Shown piece after piece: positions 62,312 to 63,999 of a stretch of 64,000 bases of DNA (the stretch's first letter is position 1; every line of letters starts with the position of its first letter). The notes under the pieces were generated by a model. The model was not told the DNA's origin. It made no database searches and saw only the letters and a program-made list of their open reading frames with translations. The DNA comes from Rhizobium rhizogenes NBRC 13257. Its GTDB lineage: Bacteria > Pseudomonadota > Alphaproteobacteria > Rhizobiales > Rhizobiaceae. The stretch lies in contig NZ_BAYX01000001.1 in the NCBI RefSeq assembly GCF_000696095.1, positions 124,001 to 188,000 on the forward strand, in the 5' to 3' direction. The translations under genes and the position numbers were made by a program.

Positions 62312-62605
62312 TCAGAGTTCTTTCTGCAAGGTCGCGAGGAATTCGGCGATGGTTTCCTCGTTGCGCTTGTAGAAGATCCACTGGCCAAGGCGCTTGGTGG
62401 TTACCAGCTCTGCGCGTTGCAATGTGCCGAGGTGGGCGGAGACGGTCGATTGTGACAGGCCGCAGCGCTCGAACTGGCTGGCGCAGACGCCCAGCTCCAG
62501 CGGGTGCTCCTGGGTCGGGAAATGTGCGCGCGGATCTTTGAGGTGATTGAGGATTTCGAGCCTGGCCGGATGGGCCAATGCCTTCAGTATCTCAGTCCTG
62601 TCCAT
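62312..62605 (-). CDS. ArsR-family redox/electrophile-type regulator
   Basis: The 97-residue winged-helix regulator has the ArsR core (EILKALAHPARLEILNHLK, SQSTVSAHLGTLQRAELV). Two cysteines (VCASQFERCGLS) flank the recognition region rather than forming the metal-binding ELCVCDL motif. Such placement suggests thiol sensing, consistent with controlling an electrophile-detoxifying OYE; this is inference. AGGT precedes ATG 62603-62605; the longer frame runs through the operator. A dyad lies 17-58 bases upstream. Confidence 0.9.
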   Translation of the reverse strand: MDRTEILKALAHPARLEILNHLKDPRAHFPTQEHPLELGVCASQFERCGLSQSTVSAHLGTLQRAELVTTKRLGQWIFYKRNEETIAEFLATLQKEL

Positions 62606-62621
62606 CGAACTTACCTCGCGA

Positions 62622-62663
62622 ATATCGAAAGTAGACGATTTATGTATCGTCGGATTTCGATAT
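62622..62663. promoter_or_regulatory. Probable ArsR operator (nested dyad)
   Basis: ATATCGAAA (62622-62630) and TTTCGATAT (62655-62663) are perfect inverted repeats, with an inner pair GACGAT/ATCGTC (62634-62639 / 62646-62651) around TTATGT. It lies immediately upstream of the arsR start and covers its promoter. Confidence 0.7.
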
Positions 62664-62727
62664 ATCAAGGTCTGCCGTCAGATATTATTTTACGTGGCGT
62701 ATTTTGTTGCGTGCTCAGAAAATGGGC

Positions 62728-62838
62728 AAAAAAAGAGGGCCACCGGAATGAACCAGGGCCCTATAGGTGTGAAGGTCAAAAACCTCCAGAGGGGAACAGC
62801 TGCTGCGGTGGAACTGGGAGGAAAAGCCACCATATGCA
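62728..62838 (-). ncRNA. abcR: AbcR-like trans-acting sRNA (alpha-r15 family), distal copy
   Basis: On the minus strand this segment folds into three hairpins. The first (GGTGG/CCACC, 62807-62831) presents the anti-Shine-Dalgarno CCTCCC (62816-62821) in its loop. The second involves CCTC/GAGG and the GGTTTTTGACC arm. The third is the terminator: GGGCCC/GGCCCT arms ending in a U7 run (62728-62762). Members of this family (AbcR1/AbcR2) bind Hfq and repress ABC-transporter mRNAs. It differs from the second copy at about a dozen of 118 positions. The 5' end is estimated (about 10 bases either way). Confidence 0.85.
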
Positions 62839-62931
62839 TCAGCTATGGGCGTTATGATGCTAATTTGTGCACTGCGCAATGCTTTTTTGTGCATGGCAGT
62901 TATGCGTTGGTGGCGCTTGGTGAAAAAAGGC

Positions 62932-63041
62932 AAAAAAAAGGGCCTCCGGAGTAAACCAGGGCCCTATAGGTATGAAGGTCAAAAACCTCCAGAGGGGAAC
63001 AGCCAATGCGGTGGAACTGGGAGGAAAAGCCACCGTGTGCA
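62932..63041 (-). ncRNA. abcR: AbcR-like trans-acting sRNA (alpha-r15 family), proximal copy
   Basis: The second tandem copy has the same architecture: GGTGG/CCACC hairpin (63010-63034) with CCTCCC in the loop (63019-63024), middle hairpin and terminator (AGGGCC/GGCCCT, 62939-62965) with a U8 run (62932-62939). The tandem arrangement next to lsrB/vtlR is the known Rhizobiaceae arrangement for AbcR1/AbcR2. Which copy corresponds to which number cannot be told here. The 5' end is estimated. Both copies share upstream TTTTGTGCAT (plus strand) at the same distance, 51 bases from TGCATCAGCTATG. Confidence 0.85.
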
Positions 63042-63171
63042 TCAGCTATGTGCGATATGGTGTCTAAATGGGCATCCTTCAACTCTGTTTTGTGCATATC
63101 AGCCATGCATAATACGCGTAGCTGATATATTAGTTCAAAAAATCGTTGAATTTCCAATCATTTAGATCGGA

Positions 63172-63999
63172 TTAGAAGTTCCAGTTCCGCGCCTTCGCAA
63201 CGACAAAATCGCGGAAAACTTTAAGTTTCGCCGCATTTTTCATCTCGTCGGGATAGCAGAAATATGTGTCGAAGGACGGTACGTCGGCATTGATCGCGAG
63301 CTGAATCAGTCCGGGGTCGCGGCCAACGATGTAGTCCGGCAGCACTGCAATGCCGATGCCGAGCAGGCAGGCGCGCTTGATCGAGGTCTGGCTGTTGATC
63401 TGCAGATGCGGCAGGCGCTTGTTGTCCGACGAGCGGCCGGCGATCTCCAGCCAGTTGACGTCGAGAAGATAGTTCGGTGCTGGTTCGCCGAAGCTGATGA
63501 TGCGATGGTCGTCCAGATCCTCCACCGACTGCGGCTCGCCGTAGCGGTTGATATAGGAGGGGGCGGCGTAGACATGCATGTGCACGGTGAAGAGCTTGCG
63601 CTGGATCAGATCCGATTGCTGCGGCTGACGCAGGCGGATGGCGCAGTCTGCATGCCGCATGTTCACGTCCAGCTCCTCGTTGTCGAGGATGAGCTGGATC
63701 TGCATGTCGGGATAAAGCTGCAGGAATTCCTGGATCTTGTCGGTCAGCCAGCCCTGGCCCAGGCCGACCGTCGTCGTTACGCGCAGCTTGCCGCTCGGCT
63801 TGTCGGTCGTCTCGGTCAATTGCATCTTGACCGTTTCGAGCTTCAGGAGAACGTCATGCGCGGTGCGGTACAGCAATTCGCCCTGTTCGGTCAGGATCAG
63901 ACCGCGGGCATGGCGATGGAACAGCTTGATGCCGACATCCTGCTCCAATGCGCTGACCTGGCGGCTGATGGCGGATTGGGACAGGTGCAGTTTGTCGGC
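63172..63999 (-). CDS. lsrB: LysR-family regulator LsrB/VtlR, 5' end beyond the window
   Basis: The visible part encodes 275 residues, starting inside the HTH (ADKLHLSQSAISRQVSALEQDVGIKL in part: LSQSAISRQVSALEQDVG) and running to the C-terminus. The effector domain has VGLGQGWLTDKIQEFLQLYPD and the characteristic ILDNEELDVNMRHADCAIRLRQPQQ, as in S. meliloti LsrB and Brucella/Agrobacterium VtlR. These regulators activate small RNAs and genes for stress and host interaction; VtlR activates AbcR-type sRNAs. It lies on the same strand as, and just upstream of, the AbcR pair. Start codon is outside the window (only 63999 bases are readable). Confidence 0.92.
   Translation of the reverse strand, partial: ADKLHLSQSAISRQVSALEQDVGIKLFHRHARGLILTEQGELLYRTAHDVLLKLETVKMQLTETTDKPSGKLRVTTTVGLGQGWLTDKIQEFLQLYPDMQIQLILDNEELDVNMRHADCAIRLRQPQQSDLIQRKLFTVHMHVYAAPSYINRYGEPQSVEDLDDHRIISFGEPAPNYLLDVNWLEIAGRSSDNKRLPHLQINSQTSIKRACLLGIGIAVLPDYIVGRDPGLIQLAINADVPSFDTYFCYPDEMKNAAKLKVFRDFVVAKARNWNF

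Follow-up and report, generated by a model that had tools for sequence, protein, structure and literature searches.

Both tandem AbcR genes beside lsrB in Rhizobium rhizogenes NBRC 13257 carry an LsrB/VtlR-type box and are predicted to respond to LsrB

The last 1.3 kb of the window (the whole 64,000-nucleotide stretch of Rhizobium rhizogenes NBRC 13257 DNA that was analysed) contains two minus-strand RNA genes, flanked by an ArsR-type gene and a LysR-type gene. The LysR-type gene runs past the window edge, and its complete 303-aa product was read on a longer locus, L005. The protein contained the Pfam domains HTH_1 (PF00126) and LysR_substrate (PF03466), and everything from residue 5 onwards aligned with PDB entry 9hh1 (E 3e-194), a deposited LsrB structure from A. 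tumefaciens (PMC11975290; articles are cited here by PMC number). No NCBIfam model was reached by the protein; the best one, YafC, stayed far under its cut-off. Counted from MPLD, its cysteines are residues 142, 234 and 271; both redox cysteines, C144 and C273 in the numbering of A. tumefaciens, are conserved, and the C244 position is occupied by valine. trxB adjoins the gene on its other side, the AbcR tandem sits between the gene and arsR, and the resulting order trxB-lsrB-AbcR-AbcR-arsR matched that of S. meliloti Ak57; the same order has been described for A. tumefaciens C58 (PMC7486931). A preliminary description of this DNA had assigned the gene to the LsrB/VtlR type, which was borne out by the 9hh1 match, the adjacent trxB and the gene order. 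On the basis of its sequence and gene order, the gene is lsrB/vtlR. The accompanying statement that relatives of LsrB/VtlR activate AbcR RNAs agrees with the AbcR1 control already published for A. tumefaciens and S. meliloti (PMC7486931, PMC8844928).

Both RNA genes matched the Rfam family RF02345 (ar15/AbcR) end to end. In cmscan, copy D scored 120.5 bits (E 6e-25) and copy U scored 116.1 bits (E 8e-24), so that the covariance-model search proposed in the preliminary description placed both copies far above the gathering score of 40. The two copies were identical at 104 of 114 bases. The predicted fold of each has three hairpins, the first of which exposes CCUCCC in its loop, and the minimum free energies of the two folds were -41.1 and -42.4 kcal/mol. 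The z scores of the two folds were -3.1 and -3.3, and 0 and 1 of 200 shuffled sequences, respectively, were equally stable. Terminal T runs were found at 62728-62734 (T7) and 62932-62939 (T8). These results confirmed that the locus encodes two AbcR-like RNAs of about 110 bases, as first described, with three hairpins, a loop-exposed CCTCCC and U7-U8 terminators. The features of the locus are collected in Table 1.

Table 1. Positions of the genes, RNAs and predicted promoter elements of the AbcR locus and of the further AbcR copies in the same genome. Positions are those of the window unless a locus is named.
Feature	Position	Strand	Basis or remark
trxB	L005:3093-4067	-	adjoins lsrB
lsrB/vtlR, LysR-type regulator, 303 aa	63172..64000, on to window-equivalent 64083, then trxB	-	Pfam and PDB 9hh1 alignment
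AbcR copy U (AbcR1 position, adjoins lsrB)	62934..63047	-	RF02345, 116.1 bits, model 1-112; three hairpins
AbcR copy D (AbcR2 position, adjoins arsR)	62731..62844	-	RF02345, 120.5 bits, model 1-112; three hairpins
Putative LsrB/VtlR box of U, GCATGGCTGATATGC, -61 to -47	63094..63108	-	fits GCAT-N3-TG-N3-T; placed as in S. meliloti PabcR1
Putative LsrB/VtlR box of D, GCATAACTGCCATGC, -61 to -47	62891..62905	-	fits GCAT-N3-TG-N3-T
Element first noted at U, ATGCACAAAA on the transcribed strand	63088..63097	-	3' half-site and flank
Element first noted at D, ATGCACAAAA on the transcribed strand	62885..62894	-	3' half-site and flank
Predicted core promoter of U, GTTGAA-N17-CCATAT, -36 to -8	63055..63083	-	9/12 alpha sigma70, 10/13 RpoH1 consensus
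Predicted core promoter region of D, ATTGCG-N17-TCATAA, weak	62852..62880	-	best 6/12 sigma70, 6/13 RpoH1
CCTCCC anti-Shine-Dalgarno, first loop of U	63019..63024	-	
CCTCCC anti-Shine-Dalgarno, first loop of D	62816..62821	-	
ArsR-type regulator, ends the order trxB-lsrB-abcR-abcR-arsR	62312..62668	-	NCBIfam HTH_metalloreg above cut-off
Third AbcR copy, boxed at -61	L006:7250-7362 (own genome C42)		plasmid-like contig
Fourth ar15 copy, diverged, no box	L007:7939-8049 (own genome C48)		84.7 bits

To the two promoters the preliminary description had attributed a shared element, TTTTGTGCAT, as a candidate regulator box. The element was found where it had been placed in front of each copy, and its spacing to the segment TGCATCAGCTATG was equal at both; the segment itself starts at 62835 and 63038, which differs by one base from the positions first given. 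A regulator box does lie at both copies, but TTTTGTGCAT covers only the 3' half-site and flank of the published VtlR/LsrB box, and the published palindromic box begins 11 bases further upstream than had been drawn. When the first base of the Rfam match was assumed to be +1, the whole element at both promoters was a palindromic GCAT-N7-ATGC at -61 to -47, which reads GCAT-N3-TG-N3-TGCACAAAA on the transcribed strand. Its first 13 bases fit the VtlR/LsrB consensus GCAT-N3-TG-N3-T at exactly -61 to -49, where the same consensus lies in S. meliloti PabcR1 (PMC8844928); PMC7486931 describes the consensus as confirmed for B. abortus and as a hypothesis for A. tumefaciens. U and D were identical at 11 of 15 bases within the box, at 14 of 39 upstream of it and at 29 of 46 downstream of it, indicating that the box persists although the flanks have diverged. 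By eye, the box is followed some 22 bases downstream by a second TGC(A)C close to the -35 region (window 62845-62880 and the promoters of L008-L087); it resembles a second site of LysR regulators.

We searched the 7.04 Mb genome with the extended form GCAT-N3-TG-N3-TGCACAA. Three sites were found, all of them at -61 of AbcR genes, namely those of U and D and of an AbcR gene on the plasmid-like contig C42. The reversed control pattern gave 0 matches in the same genome, and a stricter box pattern returned the two window sites and no others. One hit of a looser pattern, on C40, was considered as an extra LsrB target; judged by eye, it falls within a gene for an ABC-transporter ATPase, and we took it for a chance match.

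The conservation of the box was analysed in the best 80 of 498 named loci related by LsrB, a set tilted to Rhizobium, in each of which an AbcR match was present. These lsrB loci provided 145 AbcR promoters, which come from related species and are not independent; GCAT-N8-TGC stood at -61 or -62 in 139 of them, and the remaining positions of the stretch from -150 through -16 held none. Copies with a model start above 3 were left out of this analysis and likewise of the comparisons of first loops, of likeness within and between genomes and of core scores; minus-strand antisense matches were disregarded in the counts. The fixed position of the box, together with the three sites in the own genome that all lie at AbcR genes, indicated that it is more than chance.

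Locus by locus, with GCAT-N8-TGC sought near -61 on both strands, two boxed copies were the commonest state (56 of the 80 loci). Three boxed copies in tandem were found in two loci (L036 and L037), a single boxed copy was the only AbcR gene found in 11, the box lay only at the first copy in eight, its strict form only at the second copy in two, and neither copy was boxed in one. At the partially matched second copies of L052, L053, L054, L059, L072 and L074, whose starts were extrapolated, the box was not found, and a 110-base scan agrees. The duplicated box is a real pair but is common in Rhizobium and not peculiar to this genome. In the tropici/rhizogenes clade (L008-L033 less L028 and L029), the D box GCATAACTGCCATGC was letter-identical in 24 of 24 loci. 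The profile of copy-2 promoters showed half-sites conserved within a poorly conserved upstream flank. In the leguminosarum/etli clade (L067, L070, L071, L073, L077, L079-L083 and L087), copy 2 had GCAT-N3-AG in place of GCAT-N3-TG in all 11 loci; because the element is palindromic, this is the published box on the other strand.

Whole genomes were also counted, from a per-genome table. At least one boxed AbcR gene was present in 146 of 148 genomes of the genus (own genome included), and at least two, in tandem or otherwise, in 143 (the exceptions were G063, G064, G102, G110 and G126); in G070 and G145 the boxed copies lie on opposite strands. Of fourteen copies in the genus that were selected because they fit the RNA core and lack the strict box, eight were one base off and six were three or four bases off. 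In a sample of the family (297 genomes, five of them from the genus), 189 genomes had at least one boxed copy, mostly just one.

Published work on relatives bears on how this box may function. In S. meliloti, AbcR1 is LsrB-dependent and AbcR2 is RpoH1-dependent; removing the predicted motif from PabcR1 lowered its activity more than 22-fold, LsrB bound this promoter in a gel shift, and AbcR1 was undetectable in Sm2011 without lsrB (PMC8844928). A Northern analysis of S. meliloti 1021, in which lsrB was without effect on AbcR1 and AbcR2 (PMC7486931), conflicts with that study on the link between lsrB and AbcR1; deletion of lsrB in Sm1021 was not achieved by the authors of PMC8844928. S. meliloti shares with the window the order trxB-lsrB-abcR1-abcR2-arsR, the RNA family, the AbcR1 box at -61 and the CCUCCC loop (PMC8844928, PMC3712013), and in strain Ak57 we found the box at -61 of the first copy and none at the second. 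Its AbcR2 is unboxed and RpoH1-driven, whereas D of the window is boxed and has no RpoH-like core, and the RpoH-like core of the window is on U. A. tumefaciens C58 has the gene order and the GCAT-N3-TG-N3-T box in common with the window; there, VtlR is needed for AbcR1, whereas AbcR2 is unaffected by vtlR deletion and is without the RNA-binding motif M1 (PMC7486931), while D carries both the box and CCUCCC. In Brucella, VtlR activates an AbcR gene and likewise genes of DUF1127 small proteins (PMC7486931, PMC12595884); B. abortus has its two AbcR genes on separate chromosomes, and of these AbcR2 alone depends on VtlR (PMC7486931), in contrast to the tandem pair of the window. Targets of the DUF1127 or VrsA type are known from Brucella and Agrobacterium. 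Both the repression of target mRNAs by AbcR and the action of LsrB/VtlR at AbcR1 (PMC8844928, PMC7486931) are published in relatives. In the accessible part of the open-access literature, we found no report that places the box at both members of the tandem or at plasmid-borne AbcR genes, and no expression or binding data for NBRC 13257 or any second Rhizobium copy. For the box, this outcome carries little weight, since PMC8844928 compared the PabcR2 homologs of several alphaproteobacteria and describes in them an RpoH1-like box, with no other motif conserved. A promoter survey of the AbcR family was reportedly made by del Val in 2012.

We consider it likely that LsrB binds and activates both tandem AbcR promoters, with binding and transcription as predictions. 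The locus would produce two trans-acting AbcR (ar15) sRNAs, one promoter apiece. LsrB, which is redox-responsive and encoded immediately upstream, would bind GCAT-N7-ATGC at -61 to -47 and activate U and D, so that D, in the AbcR2 position, would answer to LsrB, unlike its counterparts in S. meliloti (RpoH1) and A. tumefaciens (VtlR-independent). The exposed CCUCCC loop and the CCCCUCUGG stretch of each RNA would block the ribosome-binding sites of transporter mRNAs. Signals passing through LsrB would determine the dosage of U and D alike, and probably that of the plasmid-borne third copy, and U may receive a second, heat-shock sigma input. For this strain, the mRNA targets are inferred, as is the action of LsrB at U, D and the C42 copy, the latter from the identity, position and conservation of the box. 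That both copies may be controlled by LsrB had been suggested at the outset; it holds as a suggestion, dual control being a prediction from sequence conservation.

We then scored the core promoters by match counts against the alpha sigma70 consensus (of 12) and the RpoH1 consensus CTTGAA-N16-CCTATAT (of 13), for which the random means were 6.1 and 6.3. Copy U scored 9/12 and 10/13, but the two consensuses overlap and a match count cannot part them. Copy D scored 6/12 for sigma70, which is at random level, and an RpoH-like core was not found there (6/13). For comparison, S. meliloti AbcR1 scored 7/12 for sigma70 and 6/13 for RpoH1, S. meliloti AbcR2 scored 11/13 for RpoH1, and 10/13 was reached by the second copies of L038, L044 and L075, which are unboxed. 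Within one genome, the core promoters of copy 1 and copy 2 were 70% alike in the tropici/rhizogenes clade (24 genomes) and 60% alike in the leguminosarum/etli clade (11 genomes), whereas copy-2 core promoters of different genomes were 96% and 93% alike, respectively. The core promoters of the two copies thus differ, and the copies, with a common regulator, may be unequal in strength or use different sigma factors.

One alternative would add to the control of both copies by LsrB: heat-shock sigma factors may choose between the copies, the one with the RpoH-like core being stress-induced. The RpoH1 scores fit this idea. In the tropici/rhizogenes clade, copy 1 reaches 10/13 in 24 of 24 loci and copy 2 has 6; in the leguminosarum/etli clade, copy 2 is the one that reaches 10/13, in 11 of 11 loci, and copy 1 has 8/13. 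The RpoH-like core therefore changes copy between the two clades, and it adjoins an LsrB box in all 35 loci. The same 10/13 sites, however, also score 9/12 for sigma70, as expected from overlapping consensuses, and we regard a choice by sigma factors as somewhat unlikely. We also considered that Rhizobium might have lost the RpoH-like core altogether; this did not hold, since such a core is present at copy 2 of the leguminosarum/etli clade and copy 1 of the tropici/rhizogenes clade.

It is less probable still that only U (AbcR1) is driven by LsrB and that the box of D is a leftover of the duplication, D being silent or basal. The core of D, at random level under both consensuses, would suit this, and D may indeed be poorly expressed; moreover, AbcR1 alone is regulator-dependent in A. 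tumefaciens (PMC7486931) and S. meliloti (PMC8844928). A leftover does not readily explain why the box of D is kept throughout its clade, why its half-sites are conserved within a poorly conserved upstream flank, or why copy-2 cores are far more alike between genomes than copies 1 and 2 are within one. A weak core is also compatible with activity, since S. meliloti AbcR1 is active with the low scores given above.

LysR-type boxes are degenerate, and the binding of LsrB here is a prediction, so another LysR protein could conceivably occupy the box. This seems very improbable, as LsrB/VtlR binds the box-bearing AbcR1 promoter in both S. meliloti and A. tumefaciens (PMC8844928, PMC7486931). The least credible proposal treats D as orthologous to AbcR2 and driven by RpoH1, like the S. 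meliloti gene, with an irrelevant box: D does lie in the AbcR2 syntenic slot next to arsR, but its score of 6/13 against a random mean of 6.3 led us to reject RpoH1 control and falls short of S. meliloti AbcR2 and the second copies of L038, L044 and L075, all of which, unlike D, are unboxed. Three unlinked AbcR copies (L127, L130 and L134, in G021, G024 and G041) showed, by eye, a CCTATAT -10 element with RpoH-like spacing; it is possible that they are relocated RpoH-type AbcR2 genes in some Rhizobium. LsrB control of both tandem copies remains our preferred reading.

The history of the two RNAs was examined through their bodies. The likeness of sRNA bodies was 0.935 within and 0.932 between genomes of the tropici/rhizogenes clade, and 0.899 within and 0.901 between genomes of the leguminosarum/etli clade. 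Recent gene conversion between the two copies was thus unsupported, because the bodies are equally alike within and between genomes. A tree of 73 sRNA copies, with 40 of its 68 inner branches open, did not separate the two possible origins of D, namely a duplication of AbcR1 or a promoter change of AbcR2. The first-loop CCTCCC was missing in 32 of the 145 copies, all of them second copies, and is kept in D. All but three of the 32 (L038, L044 and L075) had CTCTCCC instead, which suggests that second copies of this type have diverged targets. In the RNA, the motif reads CUCUCCC in the first loop, for example in the second copies of L040, L042, L048, L063, L081 and related loci.

The third AbcR copy of this genome, on C42, is flanked on one side by the gene of a 1702-aa protein, which has weak Pfam matches to helicase and methylase, and on the other by that of a ParB-domain protein. 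A 281-base query holding this copy matched 381 of 72,556 plasmid records, some of them partially, and 273 were typed conjugative; at least one of the 381, labelled pSymB, holds the trxB-lsrB-AbcR-arsR locus itself. We hand-picked 20 plasmid loci to cover varied hosts and degrees of identity. GCAT-N8-TGC was present at -60 or -61 in 18 of them, and the published form in 16. The M. mediterraneum plasmid copy was one base short of the box, and no LsrB box was found at the Labrenzia plasmid copy (L148), which is from outside the Rhizobiaceae. In several of the 20 loci, a ParB-domain gene and a gene for a helicase or N6-methylase recurred as neighbours. These plasmid findings amount to a correlation at the level of sequence. 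The diverged fourth copy, on C48, has in its vicinity genes that by eye are ABC-transporter and monooxygenase-like. For S. meliloti, PMC7143759 gives the number of AbcR homologs as three.

The RNA family, the regulator family and the control of AbcR1 were known; our analysis adds boxed second and third copies and the prediction that the whole tandem is LsrB-responsive. It was in Sinorhizobium, and partly in Agrobacterium, that AbcR1 was identified as responding to growth (through LsrB) and AbcR2 as responding to stress (through RpoH1). If the wiring of Rhizobium differs, the division of labour between the sibling RNAs could not simply be transferred to R. leguminosarum, R. etli and R. tropici. 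The extended box is very specific, with sites in the own genome only at AbcR genes, which makes the link between LsrB and AbcR and the plasmid copies easily testable; the extension to LsrB-boxed AbcR genes on plasmids merits such a test. As a tentative proposal, to which we give less than even confidence, LsrB may drive an expanding AbcR family: both chromosomal copies of Rhizobium would be under LsrB, the heat-shock input would have been freed from the AbcR2 slot, and the large, often conjugative plasmids of several genera would carry an LsrB-boxed AbcR gene that uses the redox regulator of the host to adjust nutrient uptake on arrival.
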